Assembly (NCBI GenBank): GCA_020055645.1
Contig: CM034546.1
Location: 122,128,375-122,192,374, forward strand
From: Tomocerus qinae
Taxonomy: Eukaryota > Arthropoda > Collembola > Entomobryomorpha > Tomoceridae
Direction: 5' to 3'
DNA length: 64,000 nt
Positions 3,294-63,803 of this stretch are shown here, piece after piece (position 1 is the stretch's first letter; every line of letters begins with the position of its first letter). Position numbers and translations under genes: made by a program. Below the pieces are notes generated by a model, which was not told the DNA's origin, searched no databases, and saw only the letters and a program-made list of their open reading frames with translations.

Positions 3294-3669
3294 CACGATA
3301 ACTTTCGAAAGCAAAGGCGGATATTGACCAAACTTGGCAAAAACAATGCCTATGGGCCACTGACGATCCCTATTGAATTTGAAGTAAATCGGTCCATTGG
3401 TTGCTGAGATACCGCGCGCTCACTTTGTCTTCATTTTGATAGTCAAAGTGAAAATTTGGCATTAAATGGACATTAAAAAGTTCAATGGCGTTTCCTATAA
3501 ATTGTTAGCGGGATAGTATAAAATATTTCACTCCGCTTCTACCAAATTTAAGATATAATAAAGCAAATCAAACCGGAAAATAACTATTAGAGGACAGAAA
3601 TAAATCTATTTCGCATTTGTATTCAATTATATAGTCAAACTTGCATTTTTCGAATTCCTATTGATTTTG

Positions 3670-4110
3670 ATAAACAATATTGACCGATTTTGATTCCCTT
3701 TTGATTTTCATAGTCAATATTAATTAATTTTGATTTTCTGTTAATTTTAATACTCAATACTAACTAATTTTGATTTTCTGTTGATTTTCATAGTCAACGT
3801 TAATCAATTTTGATTTTCTGTTGATTTTAATAGTCAGCATTAATAAATTTTGATTCCCTTCTGATTTTCATAGTCAACATTAATCAATTTTGATTTTTTG
3901 TTGATTTTCATTGCCAAAATTGATCAATTTTGATTTTCTGTTGATTTTCATAGTCAACATTATTCAATTTTGATTTTCTGTTGATTTTCATAGTCAACAT
4001 TAATCAATTTTGATTTTTTGTTGATTTTCATAGCCAACATTAATCCATTTTGATTTTCTGTTGATTTTCAGTCAACAATTATCAATTTTGATTGTATGTT
4101 GATTTTTCAA
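3670..4110. repeat. 40-bp minisatellite, about 11 copies
   Basis: The unit reads approximately tagtcaacattaatcaatt followed by ttgattttctgttgatttt-type sequence, with single-base variation between copies and a period of 40. It lies inside the inverted-repeat-bounded element. Copies are degenerate at the left edge and most uniform in the middle, the usual signature of unequal exchange. It is not a CRISPR-type array, as there are no unique spacers. Confidence 0.8.
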
Positions 4111-9877: not shown

Positions 9878-10512
9878 TTAATGAAAATCGATGAAAAACG
9901 ATGAAAATCGATGAAAATCGATGAAAATCGATGCAAATCGATGCAAATCGATGAAAAACGATGAAAAACGATGAAAAACGATGCAAATCGATGAAAAACG
10001 ATGAAAAACGAATGAAAAACGATGAAAAACGATGAAAAACGATGAAAATCGATGAAAAACGATGAAAAACGATGAAAAACGATGAAAAACGATGGAAAAC
10101 GATGAAAAACGATGAAAAACGATGAAAAACGATGAAAATCGATGAAAATCGATGAAAATCGATGAAAATCGATGAAAAACGATGAAAAACGATGAAAATC
10201 GATGAAAAACGATGAAAAACGATGAAAATCGATGAAAATCGATGAAAATCGATGAAAATCGATGAAAAACGATGAAAATCGATGAAAATCGATGAAAATC
10301 GATGAAAATCGATGAAAATCGATGAAAATCGATGAAAATCGATGAAAATCGATGAAAATCGATGAAAATCGATGAAAAACGATGAAAATCGATGAAAATC
10401 GATGAAAATCGATGAAAATCGATGAAAATCGATGAAAATCGATGAAAATCGATGAAAATCGATGAAAATCGATGAAAATCGATGAAAAACGATGAAAATC
10501 GATAAAAATCGT
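9878..10512. repeat. 10-bp satellite, about 63 copies
   Basis: The unit is GATGAAAATC with a common variant GATGAAAAAC and rarer GATGCAAATC. The AAAAAC variant dominates the left third (about 9950-10135) and the AAAATC variant the right two thirds. A few inverted copies (tcgtctttcatcgtttttcatc-like) close the right end at 10510-10530. Because 10 is not a multiple of 3 and the unit lacks a stop in the reverse frames, long spurious open frames of repeated aromatic residues result. These are not genes. Confidence 0.95.
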
Positions 10513-13355: not shown

Positions 13356-14723
13356 ATGGTGCAGTTTGTTATGAATATTTTGCATTCCGTCGTTTGCTTC
13401 TTTGTTTACGGATACAAAGATTTTGAAAAGTGGCTTTTATCTAAATTTTCTAGTAAAGTTAAAAGTCATATACATAAAATATATAGAAGAGCAGGTATCA
13501 ACATTGGAGGAAATGAACCTTGCGACATTCGAGTCAAAAATGATGACTTCTACGTACGAGTTGCCAACAACGCTGCTTTAGCTTTGGGAGAGAGCTATAT
13601 GGACGGATGGTGGGATTGCGACAAAATTGACGATTTCTGCTACAAAATGTTTAGGAATAATCTCTATCTTCATTACCAGAAGAATCCTATCAATCAAGCT
13701 GTTAATTATCTTAGCATGAGATTGTTTAACTTACAAACTAAACAGAAAGCTTGGGAAATCGCTGATCAGCATTACGATCTTGGTAAGTTTCAATTTTGAA
13801 TTTAAAATTTAATTTATTATGTTTTTGGGTTTGAAAATTATAATAACATTGATAGTTTTCAATTAAAATCTTGAAAATTGCATTAATATAATAGGAATTA
13901 TCAATAATAAATTTTGAATGACGTTTGATTAATAGGAAACGATTTATTTGAGGCGTTCTTGGATCCCACGATGAATTACAGTTGCGGATACTGGAGAACT
14001 GCTGACAATTTGAATCAAGCCCAATTAGATAAAATGGAACTGATTGGTAAAAAGATGTTATTGAAGCCTGGAATGAAAGTTTTGGATATCGGCTGTGGCT
14101 GGGGAGGTCTTGTTAAATATTTGGCCGAAAATTACCAAGTGGAATGCGTTGGGATCACAGTTTCGAAGGAAGGAGCTCAGATTGCCCGAGAACGTTGTGC
14201 AAATCTCCCGATTGACATCAGAGTACAAGACTACCGAGATGTGAATGAGAAATTCGACCGTATTGTCTCCGTAGGAATGTTTGAACACGTAGGACATCAT
14301 AACTACCGAGTTTTCTTTGAATCCTGTAATAAATGTTTGAAGGATGATGGTCTTTTCCTCCTCCACACAATCGGAGTTCACCACAAATATGTTCCTCTCA
14401 CCGAGCCTTGGTTCCACAAATATATCTTCCCCAATGGCATTCTTCCCTACACTACCTCAATCCCAAAAGTACTCGATGAGCTCTTTGTCCTCGAAGATTG
14501 GCATAATTTTGGACATGATTACAGTCGTACTCTCATGGCTTGGTTTGACAATTTTAACAAAAGTTGGCCAAAACTTCAACCTAAATATGGCGATAGATTT
14601 TACCGTATGTGGAAGTACTACTTACTCATGGCAGCTGGAGGATTCAGAGCGAGACATTATAACGTTTGGCAAATTGTTCTCAGCAAAAATGGCTATCTTG
14701 GTGGATACCCTTCAATACGCTAG
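13356..14723 (+). CDS. Cyclopropane-fatty-acyl-phospholipid synthase, bacterial type, two exons
   Basis: Exons 13356-13782 and 13936-14723 join through GT-AG in phase 1 to give 404 residues. The product should transfer methylene from S-adenosylmethionine to cis double bonds of membrane phospholipid acyl chains. Seen: GESYMDGWW (78-86), HYDLGNDLF (139-147), SAM motif VLDIGCGWGG (191-200), QDYRD (240-244), SVGMFEHVG (254-262), HTIG (286-289), AGGFRAR (376-382). Compared from memory with E. coli Cfa, the bicarbonate-site residues C139, E239, H266, I268 and Y317 correspond to C159, E259, H286, I288 and Y338, all kept. The first 20 residues are hydrophobic and unlike the bacterial N-terminus, so possibly a membrane anchor. 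The intron interrupts the codon of G143. Close bacterial likeness plus a host-style intron suggests ancient horizontal transfer. AATAAA motifs follow near 14982 and 15109. Confidence 0.93.
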
Positions 14724-15797
14724 ATAAAAGTAGGAAGAAAAATACAAAAACTAAACAAAATTTATCAAATCTATTTCATATTTGTTACTCTCAAGTTTTT
14801 AGTACATACCATTCTGTCCGAATAGGTTAAAAATTACATTCCCTACATGTACTCATTTGTACACTGTACCTTAATCTTTGTACTTTCTATTTTACTTCTA
14901 GGTAGTTAAATTTTTAAGTTCATCTCTTGGGAAATGATTTTACTCTACCCATATACACTTCATCGCGTGTTGATAACACTTAATAAATCTGCAGGTGTTT
15001 GTGTTTGTGTGTATTTATTTTGCATGAATCTGTTAAACAAACACCTGAGCGCCTGGTGGGGAATATTTGTAGGTATTTTGTATTGTTACAGGGATTTTTA
15101 CACTGTCAATAAATACACGAGCCTTATTAAAACTAATTCTTCTAATTAATTCTTCATTGTAATAAAATCATTAAATACAAAATGGGAACCAACAAAATAA
15201 TCATTATGAAAAATAACGAGATTGTCAACTCTCATGCATCATTGCCATAAGAAAAACAAAGGAAATCTTCAATGATCATGATTTTTATTTTTCTCCATGA
15301 AAAAAATCTCTGTCTGAACCATTTAGCGTAAATGAAATTTTTTCCTTTCGGAGATCTTGCATTCTTTAAAATTTTGACAACTTTCCTGCTTAGAAATCGT
15401 GACATTGAATCATTTAAGATTCTTCTTCAAAATAAATTCAGCTCATAATTTGGAAGCATTGATTTATTTTAAAAAAATATTTGTAATCAATGACATGCTG
15501 AAAAATTGAACCAAAATAAAATGCTTAAGAGAAACAAAATGCCCATCATAATTGTAGTAAAGTATTTTAATGAAAATTAATTATTTACCCAAAGAAAGTT
15601 ATCACTGTATGTATGTTTTATTTTTAGCTGTAAGCGAAAAAAGAGCAATTCTTTAACATTGAGACATCATGGACATAACACATAATGATAAAAACATAAC
15701 ACAATTTATAGTAATCTTGTCCTGTCTTAATTATATACGGTACGCAAAGGTAATTAAGGATTTTTGAAGAAGTAAATTAAAAATTGACTAGTAGAAT
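14724..15797. other. CFA 3' flank, gene-free
   Basis: Convergent space between the CFA gene and the first C16orf89-like gene. The part from about 15086 (ttacagggatttttacactg) is repeated at 19727 onward in the second duplication unit. An open frame in the second copy is broken in this one, so it is not treated as a gene. Confidence 0.6.
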
Positions 15798-18409
15798 TCA
15801 ATAGTATGGCAAACAGGTATCAACATAGTATCTAATATGAGCTGATAAAGCCAAAATGCCTACAGCTGTATAGTGAACCGAACAATTTTCATTGTCTTCA
15901 GCAAATACTGATTCCTTTCGCTTTTGTCTGGATAAAACTTGCAGGTTCTCATTTTCAAAAGAGTTCGTCTTGTTCAGAATTGTCGGCTGAGGGTACGTAG
16001 ATGAAGCTTCTCTAGGATCGGGAAAACAACCAGTTTTTTTCGACTGCCATTTAAGGATCTCGGTTAACCAGTCACGACGGAAGAAATTCGGATATCCTGC
16101 TATTCCACATATACCAACTACAAAATTCAAGAAAATAAACCAAATCATTATCAGAAATATTTTGGATAAAATCTAAATTGAAATATTATTCTATTTTATG
16201 AAAGATTACTTTGTTCTATGAAAAGATCTCGAAAACGTGTAGGAAATTTTGATTTTGCAATGTAATTTGCTTCTCGCCAAACTTTTCCACAAAGATCCTC
16301 TTTAAAGAGTCTCCAATCATAATTCTTAAACTGGGACAGGAATCGAGGATTTTCAATGCAGGCTCTCTGAAACAATATTTCGTAGTTTGATATTTATAAA
16401 TTTATTTTTACATACAGTTTTGAATATGTAAATATAGAAATTATTTGTTCACCTTTTCTGCAAGAATCATGTAAATAACTTGGTGCGTCAAAGAGTAAAG
16501 AGACATTTCCTTCCTCAAAAATATGTCTGCACAACCGGAAGTGATATCTTCGTTTTCGCAATTAAACACTTCGTATATGCAAGTATCAGAAGTAGATTCT
16601 TCCAAAACTTCATTGTGGTATTCCAATCGATCTTCTGTATCCACATCTGACTCATAGGACTCCATAATAGAAAATGGCTGCCACTTTCTTACTTCTGGAA
16701 CTTCCCACAATGTCAAATTTCTTACCCAAGGCAATATATCTACAAACAAATCCATTCATCAGTTTTTCTAAAACAATTTATCCTCTGAGGGATGAAAAAT
16801 TCGAATAACTTCCAAATAATTGGAATAACTTCCAAATAATTCGAATAAAGTACAAATAATTCGAATAAATTCCAAATATTCGTGCTTACTGGGTAACATT
16901 AATTAGTGCCACTGGCCATTGGTATATTTTGAAGAAGCCGATGTCATACATTATTTTAACTGAAAAATGTAGGTAATAAAACTGTATTTAATAAAGTTAC
17001 TGAATGAATTGACTTACAATGATTTTCCATGGATGAAATTTTACTTCCTTCAATAGTTCGTACTATTCCGTCAGTTATAGATGAGGCTGTCTTCATCATG
17101 TATCTCAAGTGGAGACTCAATACAGGAGGAAGATTGGGATGAGACTTTAAAGCTTGACTAAGCTGACCTGTTAGTGAATTAAATTACATATTTAAGCTTG
17201 AATTGAAAATAAATCAATTTTCTATGCCCCAGAAATCATTTGAAAACCATTCTTGCTAATTTGAGAAACTGTCATACTATCATTTGTTTGCATAGTATCT
17301 GTATGATGTATACCAATTGCATCATGATATTCTCAACCTGTACTTATACCATATTTTTGGGCTTAAGTATTTGTTGTTTACCCCTAGAGTGGATGACTCC
17401 TGTCCTTCTTGGGACTATTTTATTTTGAGCGTGTATTATGGAGAAGGACTTGTCCTATAACCTCAGGATTTTTAGTAGCTGTCTCAAATGCATCTGTCTC
17501 ATATTTTTAAATTGGAGTCAATTCTAGTTCTCCAAGGCTGTTTAAAAAAAGTTGGAATGAAAAATGACCCCAAATTTTATCCACTATAGGATAACATATA
17601 GTCCTTCCAGGGGCCCATAAGACTCCACATGATATAAGTCAGCAAACCAACTACCAAGCTGCGAACAAGCTAGGCTCTTTTAACATGTGTCCCAGCAAGG
17701 ACTAAGTTATAATATTTTAATATTGGTCTGGAGAGTCATCCACTCTAGGGTTAATAAATCAGCAAGCAATGATGGTATAAGTACGTATTCTACACGAATG
17801 ATGTAAAAAAAATATAGTTATGAATATTTTGACTTTGATTCTGTTAAAATGTAGCAGTATATGTATATTTAAGTTTTTCACAGATTCGAAAAGGCTTCAA
17901 AAATTCTTAGCATAAGCTACCAATGGTTGTACAAAAGTACAAATCAAAATTAATCATAATATGATAGATCATAATAATTTTCATTACGTTATCATGAAAT
18001 TTATACAATCCATTATAAAGTGTAGGTATGCTACTACAAGATGACAACAAAACAATGACAAGAACATGAAAAACTTACCTTCAGCAATTCTTGTTCCCAC
18101 TGCGGCATCTATAATTAGCCGTCCTGTATTTTTCTCATAAAAAGATAAGCCTAGCTGTAAAGCCTCGGATACCTCTTTGAAGTCGAATTTATCGTAGTGA
18201 CATTCAGGGGAGATTTGGACAAATAACTGAGAACTGTTGTCAATTTCCATCCTGCCATTTTTATGGGGTAAGTACGTATTGCTCGCATTGCTGGTTACAC
18301 TCTGATATTTAGCAAAGAGGCTAACAATCACTACTCCAACAAAAATCTTAAAAATGCATGATAATGAGCAGCAAAACCAACAGCCATGTCGACTGCCATT
18401 TCTGGACAT
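15798..18409 (-). CDS. C16orf89/DUF4735-like secreted protein, copy 1
   Basis: Five exons, minus strand: 18409-18079, 17167-17018, 16739-16453, 16366-16210, 16117-15798, giving 414 residues with all junctions GT-AG and in phase. Recognised by likeness to human C16orf89 (UPF0764, secreted, function poorly known). The SLYSLTHQVIYMILAE block matches its CLSHQLLFFLWA block, GIAGYPNFFRRDWL...ILKWQ..KTGCF matches its GMGGFSDFY..RWLEAILSWQ...GCF region, and CSVHYTAVGILAL matches its SSHNTATAVAAL end. The N-terminus has a cysteine-rich hydrophobic stretch (about residues 10-33), a signal peptide or signal anchor. The human protein is about 360 residues. A tandem twin lies at 20.5-22.5 kb and intron 1 holds a 445-bp insertion. 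Function is not inferable beyond probable secretion. Confidence 0.85.
16797..16890. repeat. Short tandem repeat, about 17-bp unit
   Basis: Repeated attcgaataa(ctt/agt/att)ccaaat-type units lie in intron 2 of the first C16orf89-like gene. The array is much reduced in the second gene copy, where only aattcgaaataattcgaatt remains near 21562. Confidence 0.7.
17340..17784. mobile_element. MITE-like insertion in intron 1 of C16orf89 copy 1
   Basis: The outer ends GTACTTATACCAT (17340-17352) and ATGGTATAAGTAC (17772-17784) are perfect inverted repeats. A second inverted block follows inside (ccctagagtggatgactc near 17381 and gagtcatccactctaggg near 17732), so the imperfect arms are about 60 bp. No frame of transposase length is inside. 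The paralogous intron in the second gene lacks the segment, with caatGTACGTACGTAC at the equivalent position. That marks an insertion after the duplication, with a possible GTAC target. Confidence 0.85.
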
Positions 18410-18666
18410 TGTGTCGTCACAAAAATTACGGAATCGAACTACTAGAAGAACTCAGACTGAATCTAAATAGTTACGTTGAGTTGGTGCTACGGTTAAGCTG
18501 TGTATCTTTAGAATCTGTACCCAGGGGTTAACCTTTTTGCATTTACCTCTACTACAACTTATTTTGTGTAATTTTCATTTTGGTAATGTCCTGAAATCTA
18601 CTCTATCTCTGTTGAAGCATTACTTATGTAGCTGATAATAAACCGTTGCAAAACGGGGTATAACAG

Positions 18667-18954
18667 CAGAGGAGTTTCGCTCCAAAGAGTATCACCAATT
18701 GAAATTTATTTGAGTAGTTTAGGTATAACCGTTCCAAAGTTATCGCCAATTGAAATTTTCAACCCTTTCCCCCAATCAGGGGATGAGACCGATCCTGCTC
18801 ATATACGAACTCAGACCTACATTTTACCTTAATGATGTATCCTGAAAATTTGAATTGTCTAACTTAAACCTTTCGAAAGTTATTGCGGATAAGGACGGAC
18901 GGACAGACAGACAGACAGAAAGTGTAAACGCATACATAGGAGTAAACTCCTCTG
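18667..18954. mobile_element. Small inverted-repeat element with GACA/GACG microsatellite
   Basis: Ends CAGAGGAGTTT (18667-18677) and AAACTCCTCTG (18944-18954) are inverted copies. A ggacggacggacagacagac run sits inside near the right end, preceded by cctttcgaaagttattgc, which resembles the cgataactttcgaaagc core next to the microsatellite at 3.2 kb. The shared core and microsatellite suggest the two elements are related (inference). This block is one of the segments absent from the second duplication unit. Confidence 0.65.
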
Positions 18955-19573
18955 AATAATGTCCAGAATAAATAAGGCATTAAAATTAGCTTAAGTAGAT
19001 AAGTCTAGATTCGTCAACAACTATGGAAAAGTCTAATTATTAAGTAATTTAGATAGTACAGTGTCCTGTAAGGAAAACAAGTCAATACGTGCGTACCTAC
19101 ATGCACGAGCTTAGATTTCGCATTGATATTATAATGTCAAGTTCCTTAAATGTAACCTCATTAGCTATTCACTAATTAATGAGGAAGAATAATGTTTATG
19201 TCATGATGATTTAATTGTCAATGTCAAAATTAGAAAAATTAAATGCAATTCTTCTTTGGTAGAAAACGGATGTTCTGCAATTATCACACTACTATATGTA
19301 AACTATGAATATACTCACCACAATCTAAACTAGTTTAGGTGAGCTGAAACAAAGCTCATCTTTCTAGTAGTAATCAAATATTATATTTAGTACTATTTAA
19401 TACAAGACTACCTAACTATTAAATACCTGTGTCAATATGCGTAACAAACAGCTGTAAGTTAACTATAGGTTTCTTGTGATTCTTAGTTGTGTAAAATTGT
19501 ATAAAAATTGGTTTACTTTGAGAAAGGAAGCTGACTGCGGGTCTGCCTATTCTAAACTAACAAACTTTGCTGA

Positions 19574-19617
19574 CTAAACAGAAGCTTGGGAAATCGCCGA
19601 TCAGCATTACTATCTTG
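19574..19617 (+). pseudogene. Relic of CFA synthase exon 1 end
   Basis: Forty-four bases match the last 45 bases of CFA exon 1 (13738-13782), with one base lost (gaaagc became gaagc) and a few substitutions, followed by the same GTAAGT donor and about 100 bases of the CFA intron. Sequence then jumps to the CFA 3' flank (gggatttttacactg), so exon 2 is deleted. There is no start codon or promoter, so it cannot encode enzyme. It marks the left breakpoint of the tandem duplication. Confidence 0.9.
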
Positions 19618-20507
19618 GTAAGTGTCAAATAAAATTTAATTTCTTGTGATTTCCGTTTGAAAATTATAATAACATTGATAATTTTCAATTAAAATCTTGA
19701 ATTACAATAATATAATAGGATTGTTTTCAGGGATTTTTACACTGTCAATAAATACACGAGCCTTATTAAAACCAATTTTCCTAATTAATTCTTCATTGTA
19801 ATAAAATCATTAAATACAAAATGGGAACCAACAAAATAATCATCATGAAAAATAACACGATTGGTCAACTCTCATGCATCATTAGCATAAGAAAAACAAA
19901 GGAAATCTTCAATGAGCATGATTTTTGTTTTTCTCCCATGAATGAAAATATTCTCTATGAACTATTTGACGTTAGTGAAATTTATTCCCCTGAGATCTTG
20001 CATTCTTTAAAAAACTTTTCTGTTTAGAAATCATGACATTGAACCATTCAAGATTCTTCTTCAAGAACAATAATTCGGCTCATAATTTGGAAGCATTGAT
20101 TTATTTTTAAATAATATATGTATGTTTGTCAATGACATCCTAAAAAATTAAACCAAAATAAAATGCCCATCCTCTAGTAAATAATGCAGTTAAAGATAAA
20201 CACTCAAAGAAAGTTGCTACTGTTTTTGTATGTATGCATTTATTTTTAGCTACTATAAGCGAAAAAAGAGCAGGATATTTTTTAACTTGAGATTTATAAT
20301 ATTTTACAAATAAAATACAAATGAACTGCATGAGTAATGTACTTACTCAAAATATCAGTATAGTAAGGACATAAAAACATCATGGACATAACACATAATG
20401 ATAAAAACATAACACAACCTAGTAATCTTGTCCTGTCTTGATTACATACGATACGTAAAGGTAATTAAGTATTTTTGAAGAAGTAAATTAAAACTGACTA
20501 GAAGAAT

Positions 20508-22462
20508 TCAATAATATGGCAAACAGGTATCAACGTAGTACCTAATATGAGCTGATAAAGCCACAATGCCTACAGCTGTATAGTGAACCGAACAATTTTC
20601 ATTGTCAACAGCAAATACTGACTCCTCTCGCTTTTGTCTGGATAAAACTTGTAGGTTCTCATTTTCAATAGAGTTCGTCTTGTTCAGAATAGTTGGTTGA
20701 GGGTAAGTAGATGAAGCTTCTCTAGGATCGGGAAAACAACCAGTTTTTTTCGACTGCCATTTAAGGATCTCGTTTAACCAGTCACGACGGAAGAAATTCG
20801 GATATCCTGCTATTCCACATATACCAACTACAAAATTCAAAAAAAAATTATCAAATTATTACCAGAAATATTTTCGATAAAATTTATATTGAAATATTCT
20901 ATTTTATGAAAGATTACTTTGTTCTATGAAAAGATCTCGGAAAAGTGTAGGAAATTTGGATTTTGCAATGTAATTTGCTTCTTGCCAAACCTTTCCACAG
21001 AGATCCTCTTTAAAGAGTCTCCAATCATAATTCTTAAACTGAGACAGGAATCGAGGATTTTCAATGCAGGCTCTCTGAAACAATATTTCGTAGTTTGATA
21101 TTTAGAAATTTATTTTTACATACAGTTTTGAATATGTAAATATAGAATTATTTGTTCACCTTTTCTGCAAGAATCATGTAAATAACTTGGTGCGTCAAAG
21201 AGTAAAGAGACATTTCCTTCCTCAAAAATATGTCTGCACAACCGGAAGTGACATCTTCGTTTTCGCAATTAAACACTTCGTAAATGCAAGCATCAGAAGT
21301 CGGCTCTTCCAAAACTTCATCGTGGTACTCCAATCGATCTTTTGTGTCCACATCTGACTCATAGGACTCCATAATAGAAAATGGCTGCCACTTTTTCACT
21401 TCTGGAACTTCCCACAATGTCGAATTTCCTACCCAAGGCAATATATCTACAAGCAAATTCATTCATCAGTTTTTCTATATTAGGTTCTGAGGGAAGAATA
21501 TATTTTTTATTAACCTAATTGCAATATTTTATGATCATCATCTATATAAAAATATTGAAATAATTCGAAATAATTCGAATTAGACACATTATTTTAACTG
21601 AAAAATATAGGTAGTAAAACAATTGTAATATAGTTATTGAATGGATCAACTTACAATGCTTTTCCATGGAGGAAATTTTACTTGCTTCAACAGTTCGTAC
21701 TATTCTTTCACTTATAGATGAGGATCTCTTCATCATGTATCTCAAGTAAAGACTCAATAAAGGAGGAAGATTGGGATGAGCTTTCAAAGCTTGACTAAGC
21801 TGACCTGTGAGTGGATTAAATTACATTGTATAAGCATGAAGTGACAATAAATCGATTTTCTGTCCAGAAATCACTGGAAAATGTGGAAAACTATTGTTTC
21901 TAATTTTTGAGAAACTATCATACTACATTTGTATCTATAGTATAGTATTGTATAATATTATGTATACTGTGTTGTGTACTATAGTATTGTATAATATTAT
22001 GTATACTGTGTACCATAATATTCTCAATGTACGTACGTACTAAAAATTTGGCTTTTGTAAAACGTAATAGTGAGTGTTTCACAGATTTGAAAAGGCTTAG
22101 AAAATTCGTAGATTCTACAAAGGTTACATACCTTCAGCAATTCTTGTTCCCAATGCGGCATCCAAAATTAGCCGTCCTGTATTTTTCTCATAAAAGGATA
22201 AGCCTCGCTGTAAAGCCTCGGATACCACTTTGAAGTCGAACTTATCGTAGTGACATTCAGGTGAGATTTGGACAAATAACTGAGAACTGTTATCAATTTC
22301 CATCCTGCCATTTTTATGAGGTAAGTACGTATTGCTCGCATTGCTGGTTACACTCTGATATTTAGCAAAGAGGCTAACAATCACTACTCCAACAAAAATC
22401 TTAAAAATGCATGATAATGAGCAGCAAAACCAACAGCCGTGTCGACTGCCATTTCTGGACAT
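20508..22462 (-). CDS. C16orf89/DUF4735-like secreted protein, copy 2
   Basis: Five exons, minus strand: 22462-22132, 21804-21655, 21446-21160, 21074-20918, 20827-20508. Every exon has exactly the same length and phase as in copy 1 (331, 150, 287, 157, 320 bases) and the product is again 414 residues, so this is an intact paralogue and not a pseudogene. By hand I count about 30 residue differences (roughly 93 percent identity). Eleven of them fall in the 50-residue exon 2 (for example S/A, V/L, H/Y, T/R, A/S, G/R, G/A, N/K). Introns are shorter than in copy 1. The signal or anchor segment (residues 10-33) is unchanged. Role is unknown beyond probable secretion; divergence of exon 2 may reflect functional separation. 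Confidence 0.85.
21941..22011. repeat. Two tandem copies of a 32-base unit, about 7 bases apart
   Basis: A unit running from tatagtattgtataatatt to gtatactgtgt occurs twice in intron 1 of the second C16orf89-like gene. It is absent from the first gene. Confidence 0.8.
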
Positions 22463-23485
22463 TGTGTCAGTTGCACAAAAATCTTTACGGAATCGAACTA
22501 ACTACTAGAAGAACTCAAACTAAATCTAAATAGTTTTATTAATTCAGAAATAATAAATACACATGGTATTTACTGTCAGCAAAGTATTGTTTTCATTCTG
22601 TATTAATTTCAATAGAATTAAAAATTGTTTCTGAACTAAGAATAGTAAAAACGACAGAACAAACCAGCATTAAGTGTCAAGTTTATACTTTCTATTTTTT
22701 TCTTGGAAAGAATAGTCAGTGTTGCTCTTCCGGTTGTCGCAACTCAATTGAAACTTTCAGTTTTATTCACGAACCTACTTCTGTGTTTGAGCTGCACAGA
22801 ATCTACGGTGGTTTCCTCGATTACTACAGTAGACTAAGATACAAAATACAGATAAAGCTATTGCAAATAGATAGAAAAGACAGGTAATGCATCGAATATC
22901 TAAGGATATTTCCTTTTGTGTACACTTCTTTAGTTGTTTTCCTAGTAATTCTACAGATATATCTTAAACGTGAGAAACTTTCAAATTATTTAAACTGTGA
23001 AATAAATTAATAAACATAAATAGTGTTTAAGCATGTAACTCTCGACACGACAATTCTATTTTCATGTTAGAAAAACTTACTATACTACGTGTACACCCAT
23101 TAAAATTTAATCTCTCCTACAGAAAGTATGTACTAATGTCAATTAAATTCAACTTTAACTATGATACAAATGTACCTAAATGCATTAACATCAGTTACGT
23201 TGAGTTGGTATCTGTACCCAGGGGTTAGCCTTTTTGCATTTACCTCTACTATACAACTTATTTTGTGTAATTTTCATTTTAATGGTAATGTCCTGATATC
23301 TACTCTATCTTTGTAATACTATTTAATGCAAGACTACCTAACTATTAAATACCTGTGTCAATATGCGTAACAAACAGCTGTAAGTTAACTATAGGTACTT
23401 GTGATTCTTAGTTATTGTATAAAATTGCATAAAAATTGGTTTACTTTGAGAAAGGAAACAAACTGCGGGTCTGCCTATTCTTTAT

Positions 23486-33701: not shown

Positions 33702-36700
33702 ATGAGCTACATGCCAGACAAATTCGACTTGCTCAACTTATCCGGGTAATATTTGTTTCTGATATTTAATAAACAATTATTAGAATCTTAAATATTTAAC
33801 TACTGTAGTTGCATTTTTATTTTCATTTTTGTGCACATTCGCTTTAAAATAAGACTTTGATATAATTTTGAAAAGTTTAGTTTTGAATTGAAATATTGCA
33901 GGGAAGGGGAAATTGTCAGTAGAACATTTAAAGTGTTTCGCTTTGACTTACATCCCAACCAGAAGAGTTTGATTGTCAGAGGAGAAATCACTGTAACGAT
34001 TACAACTGCATTATGTTGCGAGGTAGTCGCAGAAGAAACAAGGGTGAGTAAATAAAAATGATACTTTTATTAAACGCCGTAGTATGTATATCTCTGTATA
34101 TAAATAATCTGAATGAATGTCCATAATGTATCTTGTATCTGAATATTTTAGGACTTCAAAAAAATCATACGATTGGATGGTCTAAGTCTTGAATCTGAAA
34201 ACGAAAGCATACTGGCTGATATTTTTGAATCGTGTCCATTTCTAAACCAAGATTTATCAGGACACATTATTACTGCAATAAATATTTTAAAAAGCAGAGA
34301 GACATCAAATGAAAAAAGACAAGACTCTGCAGGGAAATTGGAGAAGCAATCTGCTTCTATACCGGATTTTGATTATTTTGAGGATGCCATGGCCCATTGT
34401 ACAGAAACTGACCTGGAGTCAGTAGATATGAGTCGAATAGATAAATACGTAGAGCTTTTATACGAAGAACTCTCTGATAAGACGACAGGATCTTCTCTGA
34501 TTTATCGACTTACAAAAATTCCAGAAAATTTGGTTGCTGTATCAAATCACGGTATTTTTATTAATACATAATTTATAGCGATTTTCTACTTTGAGATTCT
34601 TTCTGATACAAAGTACTGTTTTTATTGTAGAGACAGCTCTGAATGCTCTTTTTCGGACTTTGAGGGAAGACTTTAGGAAGTCTATGGATTTGACTACAAA
34701 TATTCTACATGTGTGTCTGAATTATGCCCAATTCAAAGATTTTCACAAATTATTGATTACAAACAAAATCTGTTCACTTACATTTGACATAATTGAGTTT
34801 GAACTGAATCGATACGAACGCTGGAAGAAAGAAGTATACCGTCGTAAAGGATTAAGCTTGGATGGAGCAATGAAGGACAGATCAAAGCATGATTATGATA
34901 AAATGCGCATGAAATTTAATGCCTTAACAAGGAAACAAGACAACCTCCTCAAAGGTTACTTTTTCATACAAATAATTATCTGCGACAAATCTGGACAGTA
35001 AAATCCTCAAAGTTAACTTGTTTTTTTAATAGTGGCTTTCAATGTCATTTTACATTTGGGAGAAAATGCAATTCTTCATCATGAAATACATCGTAGAGGG
35101 ATTTTAGAACTTCTAGTTCAAAGCCTGGAAAGGAAAAACTTGGATTTACTTCATGTCGTTGTTCTCCATTTAAAGAATTTGTCCATATACATAGAATGTC
35201 GAAACTTAATTTGGGAAATGCATGTTTTGGAAAAAATTCACGAACTTCTCTCTGCAAACATTCCTAATGAATTGATCGATATTTGTCTACGTTTACTTTT
35301 CAATTTAACATTTGATCATAAAATGCGTTATAAGATGATCAAACTTGGATTGTTGGCACGAATTTCAGCACTTTATGGTAACAAAACATAATTTATTTAA
35401 AAAATATTTACTGTTGCCTCAGAGTTTTCGTATACTTTTTCAAATTCCGACCACACTCAAAAACGATTCTGATTGGTTGAAATTTTTTTCGATTAGCCAA
35501 TGAAATTGCAGAGATTCTTAATCAAATTCTATAAGCTCCCTAGTTACTACCCCAAGGGGTAACATTTCATGTAACAATGCTCTCAATGGTGAATAGCTGT
35601 GCAATTATGGTAAGATAATGCAAACTAAGAGTTTTACATTATCGGAAACTCATTTTACGTTGAAATCATATTCGTAGACAGAGTGACAGAGAACCGAGTA
35701 TCGGAAGAGTATAATTTAAAGCAAAAAAGTGTTTTATTATACTTTAAACAGTGAACACTGAATATATCAATTCTTATATTATTACGGGCGGGCAAGTACT
35801 TACTGGCGTGAATGGTATAACAATAAATCACATTACATACAATTACAGGCTATTTATGCAGGTGTAGTGTACTCGAACTACATACATAGTATAATTGTTT
35901 ACATTTTAGAATTGTAGAAAATAGCATTTCTTCACTAAATTAATATTGATATACATACACAAAACCAACTTTTACATAATTAGCTGCGTAAATACTAATG
36001 CAATGCTTAGCTTATTCATATGGAAGTTTACATCTTGAAAATAGCAAGTTAGTGGACCAGCTTTCGAACTGAAAATTTATAAATAGACTGCAACAAGGAG
36101 AAATGATTGAGACAGCTACAATTAATACAATTATAACAAAGGATTTTAGCTTTTAGCCTGTAATTGTATGTAATGTGATTTATTGTTATACCATTCACGC
36201 CAGTAAGTACTTGCCCGCCCGTAATAATATAAGGATTGATATATTCAGTGTTCACTGTTTAAAGTATAATAAAACACTTTTTTGCTTTAAATTATACTCT
36301 TCCGATACTCGGTTCTCTGTCACTCTGTCTACGAATATGATTTCAACGTAAAATGAGTTTCCGATAAATGTAAAACTCTTAGTTTGCATTATCTTACCAT
36401 AATTTGCACAGCTATTCACCATTGAGAGCATTGTTACATGAAATGTTACCCCTTGGGGTAGTAACTAGGCAGCATATAGAATTTGATTATGAATCTCTGC
36501 AATTTCATTGGCTAATCGAAAAAAATTTCGACCAATCAGAATCGTTTTTGAGTGTGGTCAGAATTTGAAAAAGTATACGAAAGCTGTGAGTCAACAGTAA
36601 TTCGCATTAAAAATGTTTTAGTACCTGTATGCACATTATTATATTGCAGATGAGCCAGCTTTTGAAATTATTGCACGAAAAATATTGTACAATATGTCCA

Positions 36701-38189
36701 TGGAACGACGAATCCGTTCAAAAATCCCTTCCTCGACTGCCGTTACAACCGTAAGACAATTACAAAAGAATATATGTATTTGCTACATTTTTCTACCGCT
36801 TAAAAATATTATATGAAAGTATTTTAATATATACAGATACTAAATAGATTTCTTCTTCTGCATTGAAATTCAGTATTATAATATTATTTATTTCAGTTAC
36901 ACCGTATCAACAATTGTACCAACTTGCCAGAGGCGGTTGAATTGGCAGCATTAGCAATAAATTTGGCTGGAACGAAAAAGTGTTGTGCAGCACTGTGCGA
37001 AAATGATGGTGTAGTTCAATTGTTTCAGAAATCTTACGAAAATGAAAATGAGTTGGTGATGAAAATCTTGAGAAATTTATCGGAGCAAAATTCATCTCAT
37101 ACATTCTTTCAAGATTTTACAGGAGATTTAGCAAATGCAATTGTGAATGCTAATTCAGATGAATTTATCATTGAATGTGTGGGAACACTTGCAAATCTTG
37201 ATCTCCCAAATCTAGATTTTTGTCGACTCATAAAAGAATTCCGGTTAATTGCTTGGATGAGGGATATTGCTACGAAATCCAACAATATGCAGTATCTTGC
37301 TGGTAACTAAAATTTAATAAAATTTGCTTCGATTTTCTTTTGAATCATTGAGGCGACATTAAAATAAAATTATTCCTATTGCTAATTAGTTTTTTTGTAT
37401 TTTAGGTGAAGACAATATTAAACATCGTCGTATTCTTCTGGAAATAATAGTGTTGATCGGTACATATGCAGGAGATCCAGACTGTGCTACTTTATTTGTT
37501 CGAGAAGGTATTGTGGATATTCTACTGAATTTATTTCTCAAATGGGGCAACGACACAGAATTAAGTCTACAAATCCTGTACGTATTCTACAAACTAAGTA
37601 AACATAAACATTCACGTAGCTACATATTGGAAAAAACAAAAATCCCTGAAATGATGATGGAACTTATACGAGAAGGTCAAAAACGAATCAGAGATCTTTG
37701 CGAAGGAACATTGGATCAATTAGGGGTACTTAAATTAATTACGCAGATAATAAATAAATGTTTTATCTAACTAATATTGTTTTGATTTTCTTCAAGGAAC
37801 ACAATGAAGCATGGAAAATGAAATCAAGGAAACATCGATTTCTGTCACACAATGAAGCATGGATTGAAATTATAGATAGAATGAAGGAGAATCCAGGGGA
37901 AGAGAATATGATGACGCTGAATGTGGAGAAGCCTCTTGAACTAACAAGAAGAGGATTCTCAGACTCTCAATCTGAAGCTTCTTATTCCCTTTCTGAAGAT
38001 ATGGGTTCAGAGTCGGACAGTGAAGTGTCTCATAGAGATGAAGAAGATAATAAATCAACAAGTACAGAAAGCGAAGCCAAATGTATCTTTGATCATTTTC
38101 AACATCAGTATGAACAAGAAATGGAGGCCAAGGAACGATGGGAATACGGCATCAGTGATGAGGATGATGATTTTATCAATTCTAGCTGA
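33702..38189 (+). CDS. KIFAP3: Kinesin-associated protein 3 (KAP3), kinesin-2 accessory subunit
   Basis: Nine exons: 33702-33745, 33902-34043, 34152-34551, 34631-34954, 35033-35377, 36650-36750, 36897-37302, 37406-37725, 37797-38189. These give 824 residues (human about 790). KAP3 links heterotrimeric kinesin-2 motors to cargo, notably in intraflagellar transport. Seen: near the N-terminus the region MSRIDKYVELLYEELSDK matches the family's MDKIDEYIELLYEDIPDK block. Armadillo-type helical repeats run through the middle (ETALNALFRTLRED, GENAILHHEIHRRGILELL, RLLFNLTFDHKMRYKMIKLGLL, ECVGTLANLDLPNLD, LQILYVFYKLS). The family's late W-rich segment is kept (HNEAWKMKSRKHRFLSHNEAW). The last about 80 residues are acidic and unlike vertebrate KAP3's glycine/tyrosine-rich tail. 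Every junction is GT-AG and in phase. Intron 5 contains a large foldback element. Confidence 0.93.
35408..36600. mobile_element. 1.2-kb foldback element in KAP3 intron 5
   Basis: Arms of about 450 bp (roughly 35408-35855 and 36150-36600) are near-perfect reverse complements, for example ttaccccttggggtagtaac inside and gggcgggcaagtacttactgg near the loop. The loop is about 290 bp. The outer ends read CTGTTG...CAACAG and are flanked by TA on both sides, consistent with a TA target duplication (Tc1/mariner-like MITE or foldback element). No transposase frame is inside. Few mismatches between arms imply recent origin or arm homogenisation. The transcript would fold into a very long intronic hairpin. 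Confidence 0.9.
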
Positions 38190-55400: not shown

Positions 55401-58400
55401 AGAGCAGCTCTGGCACAAATGCTTCTTGCGATTATGATGTTTATTATATGGATGATGATATGCACAAGTACGAACTTAAAAAGGCAAGTTTTTCAAGGTT
55501 TCCCTACTATTGATTTTTCTTTGTAGTCATCTCTGATTTATCCCGTATCAGATAACAAAGCTTATGCTAGTCATTAACCGGATGCCGAAGTTAAATGTGG
55601 GATCGACTGATACCTGAACCACCACTAGCTCTATATTTAGTATCATGACCACTAGTCATCAATGTCTATCAATCAGCTAATTAATTAGTACCTACCTGCA
55701 TGTATTTGTATCACGTGTGTATATGTTATAATCAAAGATCAAAGAACATTCCATATATGTCTATCTTAAAATATAATATGCATTTCTTTCTTCCAACTTC
55801 AACTGCGCTCACAGAATCCTTTGCCATGTGAAAGATCGAACACCCGGTGTACTTTGTACGAGCTCTCCGTGAACAGAATACATAACTTAGTATATTAATA
55901 ATATTATTAACTTTCTCCTTTCATAATTGTTAATTGAAGGTAGTAATAAAGGTATTTTTGCATATAATAGAACTTTTCTTTTGTACAAAATTGAATACTA
56001 ATTGGACTGAATGATAAAATATTTTAGCCTGAGGACGCATTTTTCTGCACACTTTCTGATTTGACATTGGGGCGAAACTACACCGTAAGTGTTATCGAAA
56101 AATTCGGAAGCCGACAATCTACTGCTGCAACAATGCATTTGGAAGTACCATCGTGTCTCCATTTCTTCTCTAATAGCTACGAACGCTGTCGTAAGTATAA
56201 TATTTTACCGTGAATTCAATAAGCTACTGAATTTCTCTGAAAGTCTATACAACTGCACGATCATATAAATAGGTATAGCTCTATTGCACTGCACAAAAGT
56301 CGTATGCATTATGCTTTATGCAAATAACATGTTGTAATCGGGAAATTAGTTAGATCCCAAATCATTTATTATTTAGAAATTATTTAACAGCCTGTAATTA
56401 TAATTTATCTCAGTATTTTTGAGTATCAATGTCGTTTTCACAGACAGACAGACAAATTAGTACACCAGTACTCGGAATAATTTTCAGTTATGGATAATTG
56501 ACATTGCCCTTGATCAATAATCACTCGGAGTAAAATTCATCATAAAAATTCGACAGTCCTTGGAATTATCGTCTGTTTTTTTTGGAAATTACTATTAGTC
56601 TGATTTATAATATGTTCCCTCATTACCTCATTCTTCCTCCTGAATAGCTTTCATTGCGAGATTAACTATTGTAAATGGAAAAGAAATTAGACCCGTGGGA
56701 GACAGAATTCCCATAAGCGAATAATGAAAGGTTTTTAGAAATCTTCAAAATTTTATTGACGATATCTCTTGGCAACTGAATAATGTCACCATTGCTAAAT
56801 GCTAAATCAAATCCAAAGTTTATCCCATTGCTTAGATACAAATTCAAAACAAAACAAAAACGAAATTCGCGTTTCACATAACTTACAAAGAAATGCCACG
56901 GGTCTAATTTCTTTTCCATTTACAATAACTAGGTCCGGATTTAGTTTGAAAATTAGGCGATTTATCCATAGTCTATCCATCGTGAGCATGAAATAGGAAA
57001 ACAAGCGTAGATTGACCTAATAAAAGACAGAGGCTGTAACTTTTGAAGCTGTAATGTCAATGTCAATTTCATTTGTCTGATTTAATTTGTAATTTCAGCC
57101 CCGCCAAGTCCCACAGGAGTACACATCGAAAATGAAACATCGACTTCATTGTGGGTGGTTTGGTTACCTCCTATGTATGCGAATGATACAAATCGAATCA
57201 TAGAATATCATTTAACAGTAGACTTGTTTGATGGTACAATAAGTGACACAGCAAGATTATTTTCTGGTAAAATACCCGGAGACACAAATGTAACAAAGGT
57301 CAAAGTGAACAATATTCACGGAATCAAAGGTAGACTTCGAGTTTCGCTTATCGCTCGTAGTGGAGGAGGAGAATCAAAAGAAGTTGTTGCTTGGTTTGTT
57401 CTCAAAACAAAAGGTAAGTTTTCTTTCATGTCATATAATCTCCTTAGGCTTGGCTGTTAATAAAATGTTCAGTCGTTTCTCTATCCTTTTTACTCTTTTT
57501 CATTGAACATCACCCATTCGCCATGTCTATTGTAAGCGATTACCTTTGTTTACATTGCTAAGCTTTAATAATAATTCTGTAAACGTCATTTACCATGAAA
57601 TTAGACATTATATCTATAACATAATCCCCTCCTATAAAGTAACCAAAATAATCTGAATTGGAAGTTACGACTTCCGACAAAGTTTTCCGTTGACAAAAGT
57701 AATTTTTACATGATTTCACTTTCACGAGGACGTGGGCGGTTTTGTTCGTGCTCTGCTCATCTTGTTCATTAACTTCGTGCTCCGCTGTGATGTTACTGAT
57801 GTTGACAATTACTATTCATCTTGGCTAAATAATGCACTATAAATTAACATTGAGTAATTTTCCATCATCAATTTGTGCTAATACGAATACGTGCCTTTGA
57901 GTAAAAATGTCCACATGACTTCACATGAGTAATTTAATAATGCAGTTGTCAGTTGTGCAACCCAATGCAATGACTACACTACAAGAATAAGCTATATTTT
58001 ATAGCCTATGAAATACAAAGCTACATTTTGCATTAGATAGATTCTTTCTTTTCTTTCTATTCTACAAGTAATATAAAGGAGCCTTAAACAATTAAAAAAA
58101 TGCAATTGTCCTGCGAAAAAGCTGAAAAGTGCTTTGTACACTTAACAATTGGGCAAAAAATTAGGCATTGTAGCCTTTGACATTTGACCTTTCACTGAAA
58201 CTTTCTTAATCATTCGAAAATGGCAAAACATTTCAAAGTTTATTCTGTTTTTCCAGTATGTAGTACTAAATACAATTTTAATAACGAAGGTAATTTGGAA
58301 CCGAAAAGTTTTATTCCTATACCACGGCAGTTTCAGAGAATTTTACCACAGATGCAAATCATTATAATTCATAATCATATTATTATAATTTAAATTACCT

Positions 58401-61166
58401 TACCTTATTTATCTGTAATTCAAATGAAAAATTCATGGTTGAAAAGCTTCCTTGCGTAAAAAGCGATTCAGTTCCACCCAAACTAATCAATCAGTTACTA
58501 TAAATCGAGATAAATAAATGTACCGCGTTGATTTGATCTGATCTGTTGGAATTTGCAGTTGTTTCCAGTTTCACGAAGACGTGGGTGATCATCACAGTTT
58601 TAATCGTGCTAGTTGCTTTGGTTGTCAGCTTTTTCCTCTTCAAAAGCTTTCGGGATAAGTTACAGCGACAGCGTAAACGACACGAATATTTTGAGGTAAA
58701 TTCCGTATTCTTGTTTGGATTCCCACAATTCCCAGTAGCATGGCTAAGGAAATCTCGGTTAGGCCCTTTTGATGGAGCCAACATTGATAGTCCACGTACC
58801 TTGTTCATGTTCTACCCACCAAAAGTGCCTAATTGTGAAAAGGTCTGTATCGAAGAATCATATTATTAGAAGTAAATGGTAAATGCAACTTTCATTGACA
58901 TTGGTAAACAGAACTTGGAAAAAGAAACGATGATGACGCCAATAAAAGCAGACAGATACTCAACTAAATGGGAAATAGACTTGGGGAATTTGGAAGTGGG
59001 CGATGTAATTGGAGAAGGCTTCTTTGGTCTTGTCAGAAAAGCCATTCTTCACAAAAATGGAGAGTCTATTGTGGTGGCTGTAAAAACGTTGAGAGGTAAA
59101 ATCAGCACAAAATGAAACTTTGTACTTTGTTATATTAAACTTTTCTTGTTAGTTTCCAATTTTGGCATCTAAAGTTTTGCACATTGTGTGAAAGTTCAGA
59201 AACTTTAATTTTTAATAACAAATATAGGTATAGTTGTTAATATTACATTCATTATAAACATAACAATATTATTAATCATCATGTTTTATACCAAAAGAGT
59301 CTGTGGATACAAAAGACGCGGAAAAATTTTGGGAAGAATTTGAAATACTGAAAGGACTTGGTAGACACCGTCATGTCGTCGGATTGATTGGCATCGTACG
59401 AAAACACGTCCCAGCACTTATTGTTGAATATTGTGACGGCGGAGATCTCCAAACTCACTTGAGAAAGGTTGCTAAAATAACACTTTAATTATTTTTACAC
59501 TTTTGATATGAAAACACCGAAACTATTATTTAATTAAATGCCTATAAACAAGTTCGATTAGTAGTATATTATACCTATCAAACAATGCCTACAAAGTTAT
59601 TGTATTAAAATAAACAGGTATACCATTCTCAGGTTCATGACATGACCTTTTCATCCTGCTCAGACTTACCCAACTTTGGTAAGTTAGAATTTTAAACTTA
59701 TTTTTAATCGTTTTAACTTAAAAGGCTTCAAGGGCAATGCTTTTAGATGTTTTTAACTTGTATCTAAATATATCTTAGTGTATCTAACATCTCACTTTTA
59801 TCTAACTAAACGATTTGTCTGTATTATCTATACAATAGACACTTTAACGCCTACATATACGGCTCGCAGTTATAATTCTGTGAATACTGTGTATAAATTA
59901 CGTAAAGGTAGGCAGAATAGCCGCTCCCAGTCCAATTTATTCCATTCTTTAAGTTATTAAAGATGTTATTTTTTTAGCTTTTGTTATTATTAAAAACTTT
60001 CTTCATTTATCTATTATCAAAATTGCCTGATTTCTTTTTGTAGGAAGCCATAATTAATATTGCTAAAAGATCATTTTGTGTTGCATGAAATGAAGGTGCA
60101 ACTATCCAGAATTCAATGGTGACAAATGAAGCGTACTTTGCAAGGGAGGAGGAAGAAATATTGGGACTGGAAGATTTGCTTTCATATGCAAGACAAATTG
60201 CTTGTGGAATGGTAGTCAATTTAATTTTCTTTGTCAAACATTTTCTATCTATTTGTAGCTAAAAAGTATCTTTATTATTAGGAGTTCTTGTCTTTGAATA
60301 AAATCGTACACCGCGATCTTGCTGCGCGGAATATTCTCGTATCCGGTCAAAATGAAGAGAAAACTGTTAAGATAGCTGATTTTGGTCTTAGTCGAGATGT
60401 TTATGAACAAAATTGGTACAAGAAAAGTTCAAATGGAAAATTACCGATTAAATGGTAATTAATTGTTTCTATCTAATAAAAGCTTATTGAGATGCAAGGT
60501 TATTAAAAAGTAACAACAGCAATATTTAATAAAAAAGAAGACTTAATAGAAATATTTTCAATCATTTTTAGGCTTGCTGTCGAATGCCTGCTTCAGGAAG
60601 TTTACACAACGCAATCTGACGTGTATGTCTCTAGATCTCATACTATCTATATATTATGTTACAGGAAATTCATACAGTTTTTGTAATTTTGGATTAGAAC
60701 ACATTTTCTAGGATATTTAAAATTTCCTGTCGTAGGATAGACCGTGTGCATAATATATTGTCCTGTCGGACAAATGTACTCGTCCAGAGTGTAGAATTTC
60801 CTGTAACATTTATTTATGAACTTCACATACTTTAGGTGGTTTGTTGATGCAATAATTAATTGTGAATATCTACTTCTATTTTGCAGTTGGGCGTATGGTA
60901 TTCTTCTATGGGAAATTATAACTTACGGCGGAAACCCTTACCCTGGGGTAGAAAATAGGAAGATATTTGATTTATTAAAAGCAGGGTACAGAATGTCTAA
61001 ACCTGCTAATTGCACCGAGGAGCTGTATGCACTCATGAAACATTGCTGGGCAGAAAAACCTGCTAATCGACCAGACTTTCCTACAATCCGAGTGAAATTG
61101 GAAGAAATGATAGAGAAAATAAGTGGAGCTACATACTTTACAGTGGATTCAGCTTTTGCTCCATAA
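52447..61166 (+). CDS. Receptor tyrosine kinase with fibronectin-III-like ectodomain
   Basis: Fourteen exons: 52447-52629, 53545-53634, 54159-54382, 54646-54836, 55305-55483, 56028-56190, 57099-57413, 58559-58842, 58912-59095, 59298-59467, 60110-60211, 60282-60454, 60572-60622, 60887-61166. These give 862 residues with phases closing. Signal peptide at about 1-31, cysteine-containing segment about 80-100, fibronectin-III-like regions (about 165-440) with [11 protein letters not shown] and W...WLPP strands, transmembrane helix about 457-476. Kinase: GEGFFGLV (577-584), VAVK (K601), helix-C glutamate E618, HRDLAARN (705-712, D707), DFG (728-730), activation loop with Y736 and Y741, [16 protein letters not shown]. 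All catalytic residues are present, so it is probably active. Domain order suggests Torso/FGFR/RET-like receptors; Torso is plausible but unproven. Intron 5 uses a GC-AG donor. An alternative donor after 58695 is also in phase and would drop 49 juxtamembrane residues. Confidence 0.85.
52987..53247 (+). other. Possible alternative terminal exon inside RTK intron 1
   Basis: An 86-codon frame opens exactly after an AG acceptor (tttcaatag/GTG), in phase 0, matching the phase-0 end of RTK exon 1. It ends at TGA and is followed 20 bases later by AATAAA (53267). Spliced to exon 1 it would give a short secreted product. The end of the frame ([17 protein letters not shown]) weakly recalls the last helices of death-type domains; this is a guess. 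It could also be a small separate gene's last exon or chance. Confidence 0.35.
53267..53272 (+). promoter_or_regulatory. AATAAA after the possible terminal exon
   Basis: Canonical polyadenylation hexamer 20 bases downstream of the stop codon at 53245-53247, within RTK intron 1. In an AT-rich genome a chance hit is possible. Confidence 0.4.
56443..56456. repeat. Short (CAGA)n microsatellite in RTK intron 6
   Basis: Three to four cagacaga units within an intron. It may be the remnant of an element related to those carrying the same tetranucleotide at 3.2 and 18.9 kb. Confidence 0.5.
56667..56927. mobile_element. MITE-like element in RTK intron 6
   Basis: A terminal inverted repeat of about 32 bases: the left end begins tattgtaaatggaaaagaaa and continues to acccgtgg; the right end is its exact reverse complement, ccacgggtctaat through tttacaata. 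The interior (about 195 bp) holds only chance frames. Flanking duplication not clear. Confidence 0.88.
57414..58558. other. RTK intron 7 with a transmembrane-exon-like patch
   Basis: At 57718-57765 the sequence ttcacgaggacgtgggcggt resembles the start of the transmembrane exon (ttcacgaagacgtgggtgat at 58570). One frame reads [12 protein letters not shown] against [12 protein letters not shown] in the real exon. It hints at an old exon duplication; otherwise the intron is featureless. Confidence 0.35.
60656..60809. mobile_element. 154-bp MITE-like element in RTK intron 13
   Basis: ATGTTACAGGAAATTC (60656-60671) and GAATTTCCTGTAACAT (60794-60809) are perfect 16-base inverted repeats. Subterminal copies of aatttcctgt and cctgtcg-type words lie inside. 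No coding frame. Confidence 0.85.
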
Positions 61167-63741: not shown

Positions 63742-63803
63742 CTACATAACATATATTTTAATTAAGGATGACGTTTTGTCAAATGAGAAAATATTACAAG
63801 ATT

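Follow-up and report, generated by a model that had tools for sequence, protein, structure and literature searches.

A bacterial-type cyclopropane fatty acid synthase with an intron, and its multicopy family, in an animal genome

The window analysed here, a whole stretch of 64,000 nucleotides (nt) recorded for the springtail Tomocerus qinae, contains on its plus strand (13356-14723) a gene for a bacterial-type cyclopropane fatty acid (CFA) synthase. The gene is composed of two exons and one intron, and its translation gives a product of 404 amino acids (aa). Counting this gene, the genome has at least 21 CFA loci. Transfer of the gene followed by domestication is well supported, since the intron is shared by 21 of the 21 gene models, the host copies form one clade, purifying selection is observed and a fragment of the gene was duplicated together with a native neighbour. 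The sequence-only reading, which had proposed transfer and domestication, is supported in part, on these four points. The sequences further suggest that a single ancient transfer was probably followed by intron gain, amplification and partial divergence, and that the window copy is most likely a membrane-anchored cyclopropanating enzyme.

The window gene and its product

The window protein is matched by Pfam CMAS (PF02353) over residues 128-389, with an E-value of 6.4e-89 and positions 2-273 of the 273-position profile. The top match in the PDB is the E. coli Cfa structure 6bqc (E 2.1e-130). The alignment begins at residue 41 of the window protein, and 190 of the 382 positions aligned with E. 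coli Cfa are identical (50%). The E. coli residues C139, E239, H266, I268 and Y317 correspond to C159, E259, H286, I288 and Y338 of the window protein, so that all five are conserved in the alignment. We take C139 and I268 to be members of the E. coli Cfa bicarbonate site. The bicarbonate ligands described for this enzyme are Glu239, His266 and Tyr317 (PMC11387697). Given that these ligands are kept, cyclopropanation dependent on S-adenosylmethionine (SAM), as in E. coli, is the most likely reaction.

The window protein carries the common residue at 80 of the 83 positions that are near-invariant among 77 prokaryotic relatives, which is inside the range of those relatives themselves. The three departures are M150F, Q222G and D339S. 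Position 222 corresponds to E. coli Q202, where the glutamine is presumably a SAM contact, an assumption carried over from CmaA1. At the C-terminus the tail is similar to the GGYxSxR end shared by many other sequences and is unlike that of Trabulsiella.

The part of the protein that aligns with most bacteria is preceded by a hydrophobic N-terminal segment, which has a 19-residue hydropathy of 1.65 at residue 1. An N-terminal segment in this position is found in 17 of the 17 family proteins with intact reading frames. In these copies the best 19-residue N-terminal hydropathy has a median of 1.41 and is at least 1.0 in 16 of 17, the exception being L090 with 0.86; for L109 the value was taken over a longer stretch than for the other copies. 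The same measure applied to bacterial N-termini gives a median of 0.28, with 3 of 75 reaching 1.0. In L090 and L108 another part of the protein contains a stretch at least as hydrophobic as this segment. The N-terminal segment is a candidate membrane anchor.

The G+C content at third codon positions is 0.41 in the window gene and 0.30 in the neighbouring reading frames (1,154 codons, some non-coding ends included). The relative synonymous codon usage of the gene correlates with that of the neighbouring frames (0.55) and not with that of E. coli cfa (-0.05). The sequence-only reading had described a CFA synthase gene with an intron in an animal genome, which is confirmed by the 404-aa product, the 153-nt phase-1 intron and the CMAS match. 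Its five conserved bicarbonate-site residues were recovered in the alignment to E. coli Cfa, and the new hydrophobic N-terminus that it pointed out is borne out by hydropathy and has counterparts across the host CFA family. The AT-rich, host-like base use that it reported holds in part: codon usage is nearer to the neighbours than to E. coli cfa, but the third-position G+C content exceeds that of the neighbours.

The family across the genome and its origin

The search covered the whole assembly of 334,443,149 bases, in which the window lies at 122.1 Mb of the 140-Mb contig C1; the contig C2 has 71,848,904 bases. The 49 matches resolve to at least 21 CFA loci, 20 on C1 and one on C2, with clusters on C1 at 22.26-22.32 Mb and 70.56-70.79 Mb. 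A truncated copy at window position 19573 stands outside this count. The window protein served as the template for spliced-alignment models of the 20 other loci, and all models are computed. The intron common to the 21 models has the same site and phase, inside the codon after residue 142, and splits the codon for the glycine in the HYDLG-NDLF motif. In L096 a GC-AG intron was placed by hand at the shared site, the program having picked another split. Extra introns follow residue 189 in L106, L108 and L109 and residue 300 in L107. The frame is uninterrupted over the whole protein in 17 of the 21 loci and broken in L094, L095, L097 and L103; the model of L109 includes additional 5' sequence (456 aa), with an uncertain start.

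The genome also contains arrays of the TTAGG repeat: a TTAGG 30-mer has 400 overlapping exact match positions (control 0), the listed ones mostly in short contig-internal arrays. The same exact-match search returned 0 matches for TTAGGC arrays. The presence of the former and the lack of the latter fit an arthropod genome and not a nematode one. A search with the mir-278 model (RF00729) gave no match among the 61 candidates scored out of 17,877, too small a share to be informative.

The young CFA copies are under purifying selection. The ratio of nonsynonymous to synonymous substitution rates (dN/dS, Nei-Gojobori) is 0.10-0.35 in the 28 of 120 pairs, formed by 16 intact copies, that have a dS below 1.5, all of them within young clusters; L094, L095, L097, L103 and L109 are left out of this count. 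The five catalytic-site residues are all kept in 13 of the 17 intact copies. The losses are E to A in L098, E to V in L105, C to N and H to Q in L108, and H to Q, I to S and Y to F in L109. At the position of E. coli Q202 the 21 host loci have glutamine in 16 cases, glycine in four (the window copy, L105, L106 and L109) and isoleucine in the broken L103.

The prokaryotic sequences compared with the family are the best 80 of 586 candidates. These were found by patterns taken from the window protein, and the set is therefore biased towards likeness to it. Three of the 80 loci (L050, L052 and L080) were lost at the open reading frame (ORF) filter. The family tree comprises 20 host and 70 prokaryotic rows, eight near-duplicate prokaryotic rows and the broken L103 being excluded. 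All 20 host rows lie on one side of a branch with a support of 100/99 and the 70 prokaryotic rows on the other, in a tree whose bootstrap is not fully settled. The single host clade and the shared intron point to one origin and not to repeated transfers.

Among the best 80 of 586, the prokaryote closest to the window copy is a Dehalococcoidia bin (56% identity), and the one closest to any intact copy is an Aenigmarchaeum bin (59%, to L107). In a tree without the other host copies, the window copy is placed on the side made up mostly of Pseudomonadota. Moving it outside costs nothing significant, as a constraint that unites 14 mostly Pseudomonadota rows to its exclusion lowers the log-likelihood by 0.59 units (p-value of the approximately unbiased test, p-AU, 0.48). 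For the family, a tree constrained to join it with Wohlfahrtiimonas, Trabulsiella and E. coli scores 16 log-likelihood units above the free-search tree (p-AU 0.70). The donor may thus have been gammaproteobacterial. A clade of the host with Enterobacteriaceae (two rows) is 45.8 log-likelihood units worse and, with a p-AU of 0.096, not formally rejected. A viral carrier was considered and rejected: viral contigs gave zero matches, and the 5 phage records matched are all below 60% identity and unannotated.

Genomic neighbourhood and joint duplication

The right-hand neighbours of the window gene have animal domains, namely DUF4735/C16orf89, kinesin-associated protein (KAP), Fn3 and tyrosine kinase (Pfam; Table 1). 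On the left side (13.3 kb), a Pfam scan of 55 ORFs of at least 48 aa (the repeat at 9.7-10.7 kb excluded) gave a single weak match with an E-value of 0.005, so that no gene is recognised there. The eukaryotic neighbours reported by the sequence-only reading are recognised on the right side.

The end of CFA exon 1, the sequence that follows it and the C16orf89 gene form a tandem-duplicated unit. The matched stretches of its two copies are 80-94% identical. The truncated CFA copy at 19573 is without exon 2 and the 3' region and runs on into the second C16orf89 copy. This joint duplication of a CFA fragment with C16orf89 rules out a contaminant joined by the assembly. A 775-nt segment of the first unit (18613-19387) has no counterpart in the second; it may be an inserted mobile element, or sequence since lost from the second unit. 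A possible third DUF4735/C16orf89 copy at 63425-63757 is weak (22.2 bits, against a Pfam cut-off of 31.2).

Several repeats accompany these genes. Within the span of the KAP gene there is an inverted repeat (35408-35852 and 36154-36600) of the foldback-like type, with arms of about 447 nt that are 97.5% identical. On the left side, a tandem array at 9881-10511 consists of 63 copies of a 10-nt unit. Three minus-strand frames are open through it as FHRFSSIFID repeats, and these ORFs are a by-product of the 10-nt repeat. A minisatellite at 3661-4106 has 11 copies of a 40-nt unit. Rfam and tRNA scans of the 64-kb window gave no matches.

Other CFA copies of the genome are adjoined by Pfam matches to bestrophin, DUF229, tektin and tyrosine kinase. 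Near two of these places, 20 of the 170 ORFs of at least 75 aa were scanned, and 11 of the 20 have a Pfam match at E <=0.001, some of them under the family cut-off. By the 22.26-Mb cluster, two long frames (L110:4917-7034 and L111:4097-7093) with matches to reverse transcriptase and retroviral-type aspartyl protease are probably retroelements.

Table 1. Coordinates of the features of the window (nt)
Feature	Position	Strand	Basis or remark
CFA exon 1	13356..13782	+	427 nt; hydrophobic N-terminal segment and N-terminal domain; translation, tblastn, spliced alignment
Hydrophobic N-terminal segment, residues 1-21	13356..13418	+	absent from most bacterial relatives; counterpart in paralogues
CFA intron	13783..13935	+	153 nt, phase 1, GT-AG (GTAAGT...AATAG), 17% GC; in-frame stops
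CFA exon 2	13936..14723	+	SAM-dependent catalytic domain including stop codon; Pfam CMAS and E. coli Cfa alignment
Cys159 codon (E. coli C139)	13983..13985	+	alignment
Gly222 codon (E. coli Q202)	14172..14174	+	Gln in 78 of 78 prokaryotic rows
Glu259 codon, bicarbonate ligand (E. coli E239)	14283..14285	+	alignment and PMC11387697
His286 codon, bicarbonate ligand (E. coli H266)	14364..14366	+	alignment and PMC11387697
Tyr338 codon, bicarbonate ligand (E. coli Y317)	14520..14522	+	alignment and PMC11387697
Candidate polyadenylation signal AATAAA, then GT-rich sequence	14982..14987	+	motif only; further AATAAA downstream
Tandem-duplicated unit, first copy (end of CFA exon 1 onward and C16orf89)	13737..19553	.	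self-comparison
C16orf89/DUF4735 gene, copy 1	15798..18451	-	Pfam DUF4735, E 7.6e-20 on 15798-16172; extent from ORFs and duplication
Tandem-duplicated unit, second copy	19573..23481	.	self-comparison
Truncated second CFA copy	19573..19720	+	about 45 nt of exon 1 end and partial intron; 136 of 160 aligned positions identical
C16orf89/DUF4735 gene, copy 2	20508..22501	-	matched stretches in gene span 83-94% identical to copy 1
KAP gene	34152..37770	+	Pfam KAP in three exons; PDB 9w9h KAP3
Fn3 and tyrosine kinase stretch	57086..61166	+	Pfam fn3, PK_Tyr_Ser-Thr

Alternative readings and known systems

In the history proposed here, an arthropod ancestor would have taken up one prokaryotic CFA synthase gene. 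The acquired gene would have gained the phase-1 intron in the HYDLG-NDLF glycine codon and the hydrophobic N-terminal extension, and would subsequently have spread to 21 or more loci on two large contigs, with the young copies kept by purifying selection. The window enzyme, most likely membrane-anchored, would take a methyl group from SAM and, with bound bicarbonate as the base, would convert the cis double bonds of phospholipid acyl chains to cyclopropane rings. The products may be membrane lipids or precursors of cuticular hydrocarbons. The cyclopropane lipids found in a springtail and a millipede (PMC10825826) make a role in lipids plausible.

Several observations weigh against this history or against the proposed reaction. 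Four of the 17 intact copies have lost at least one of the five catalytic-site residues, and the window copy itself has Gly222 where all 78 prokaryotic rows show glutamine. Values of dN/dS are measurable for the young clusters only, the window copy being too distant from its relatives. The nematode enzyme FCMT-1, which has the same kind of origin, yields methyl-branched fatty acids instead of cyclopropane ones (PMC10876521). This precedent makes methyl branching the main rival, more so for the copies that have lost ligands. A domesticated and expressed gene whose window copy introduces FCMT-1-like methyl branches, or is weak or inactive, is considered rather unlikely; the exchange of glutamine for glycine shared with L105, L106 and L109 and the departures of the four paralogues (L098, L105, L108 and L109) speak for it, whereas the five catalytic-site residues and the 80 near-invariant positions retained by the window copy speak for cyclopropanation.

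As regards the origin, the best donor placement shifts from tree to tree, and the comparison set of the trees is prokaryotic only. The gammaproteobacterial origin named by the sequence-only reading is allowed by the constrained tree, and the phylogeny that it had proposed as a check, here against prokaryotes, separates the host rows as one clade. The family could be older in animals or eukaryotes, either through a transfer shared with FCMT-1 or through acquisition from a fungus or protist, and would then not stem from a prokaryotic transfer of its own. The distance to every prokaryote of the set (56% identity at best for the window copy, 59% for L107) agrees with this, as does the presence of CFA synthases in plants, fungi, Leishmania, nematodes and ants (PMC13320244, PMC3519623, PMC10876521); it is judged improbable, less likely than a gene without cyclopropanating activity. 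Bacterial contamination or a chimeric assembly, with a negligible probability, was rejected on account of the intron, the CFA fragment duplicated with C16orf89 and the 20 other loci on large contigs that share this intron. The intron had already argued against contamination in the sequence-only reading, and the shared intron and the joint duplication exclude it.

Separate from the single ancient transfer is the question of what the whole family makes. On a bolder and rather unlikely reading it is a multigene lipid-tailoring family of springtails, in which some members would form cyclopropane rings and others, where bicarbonate ligands were lost, methyl branches, together building cuticular hydrocarbons with cyclopropanes and methyl branches like those of a springtail. 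With its CFA family the animal may modify its fats in a manner that animals normally cannot, and the family could show how one transferred enzyme yields several lipid products. In the springtail Vertagopus sarekensis the major cuticular lipid is a hydrocarbon (sarekensane) with two cis-cyclopropanes and a methyl branch (PMC10825826), and the millipede Graphidostreptus makes cyclopropane fatty acids (PMC10825826, PMC3519623). The available part of PMC10825826 names no animal enzyme for cyclopropane lipids, and the word "synthase" is absent from its main text; the host family supplies candidate enzymes for such lipids. The genome of the springtail Folsomia candida is reported to contain 809 transferred genes (PMC5490193), and the main text of that paper does not contain the word "cyclopropane".

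Transfers of this kind are already known. The literature searches on CFA synthase transfer in animals or eukaryotes yielded two animal cases, the Formica ants (PMC13320244) and the nematode FCMT-1 (PMC10876521); the remark of the sequence-only reading that animals do not normally have CFA synthases must be qualified accordingly. With the present family, CFA-type transfers would be known from three animal lineages, and of the three compared it would be the one with visible catalytic-site divergence across many copies. As far as the literature searches reach, the combination is new: a family of 21 or more loci that share a single origin and intron site and carry an N-terminal extension, without a near donor, with intact copies that diverge at the catalytic site, in a probable host from a group with cyclopropane lipids.

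The closest well-known enzyme is E. coli Cfa (6BQC), which the window protein resembles in the N-terminal and catalytic parts, the SAM motif DIGCGWGG and the bicarbonate ligands, at the 50% identity given above. It differs from E. coli Cfa and PF02353 in the intron, the hydrophobic N-terminal segment, the change of glutamine to glycine at Q202 and the animal genome in which it lies. FCMT-1 (C. elegans F13D12.9) is attributed to an ancient transfer of a bacterial CFA synthase and is required for beta-methyl fatty acids in C. elegans, which makes no cyclopropane lipids; it is named as a single C. elegans gene, conserved in Nematoda (PMC10876521). In contrast, the host family has at least 21 loci in a genome with no TTAGGC arrays, FCMT-1 being compared by description only. 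In Formica and Iberoformica ants, 87 horizontal transfers of cfa were counted in eight species, with some copies fragmentary, three species having complete ones of 1,148 bp, a likely Sodalis-like enterobacterial donor and an age of about 33 million years (PMC13320244). The two arthropod cases are alike in having amplified CFA synthases; by description, the ant genes are unlike the host family in its one intron site, N-terminal extension, lack of a near donor and catalytic-site divergence. The CFA synthetase of the protist Leishmania, also compared by description only, is another eukaryotic enzyme of this type that has been ascribed to horizontal transfer, the source being probably bacterial; it is a single gene and is absent from L. 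major (PMC3519623).

Mycobacterial mycolic acid methyltransferases are among the PDB matches of the window protein, with scores far below that of E. coli Cfa. The mycobacterial CmaA, MmaA and UmaA enzymes are a multigene family of the CMAS fold with different products. The CmaA enzymes are without the N-terminal domain (PMC11387697). If the host copies do tailor lipids as a family, they would be the animal counterpart of these mycobacterial methyltransferases.
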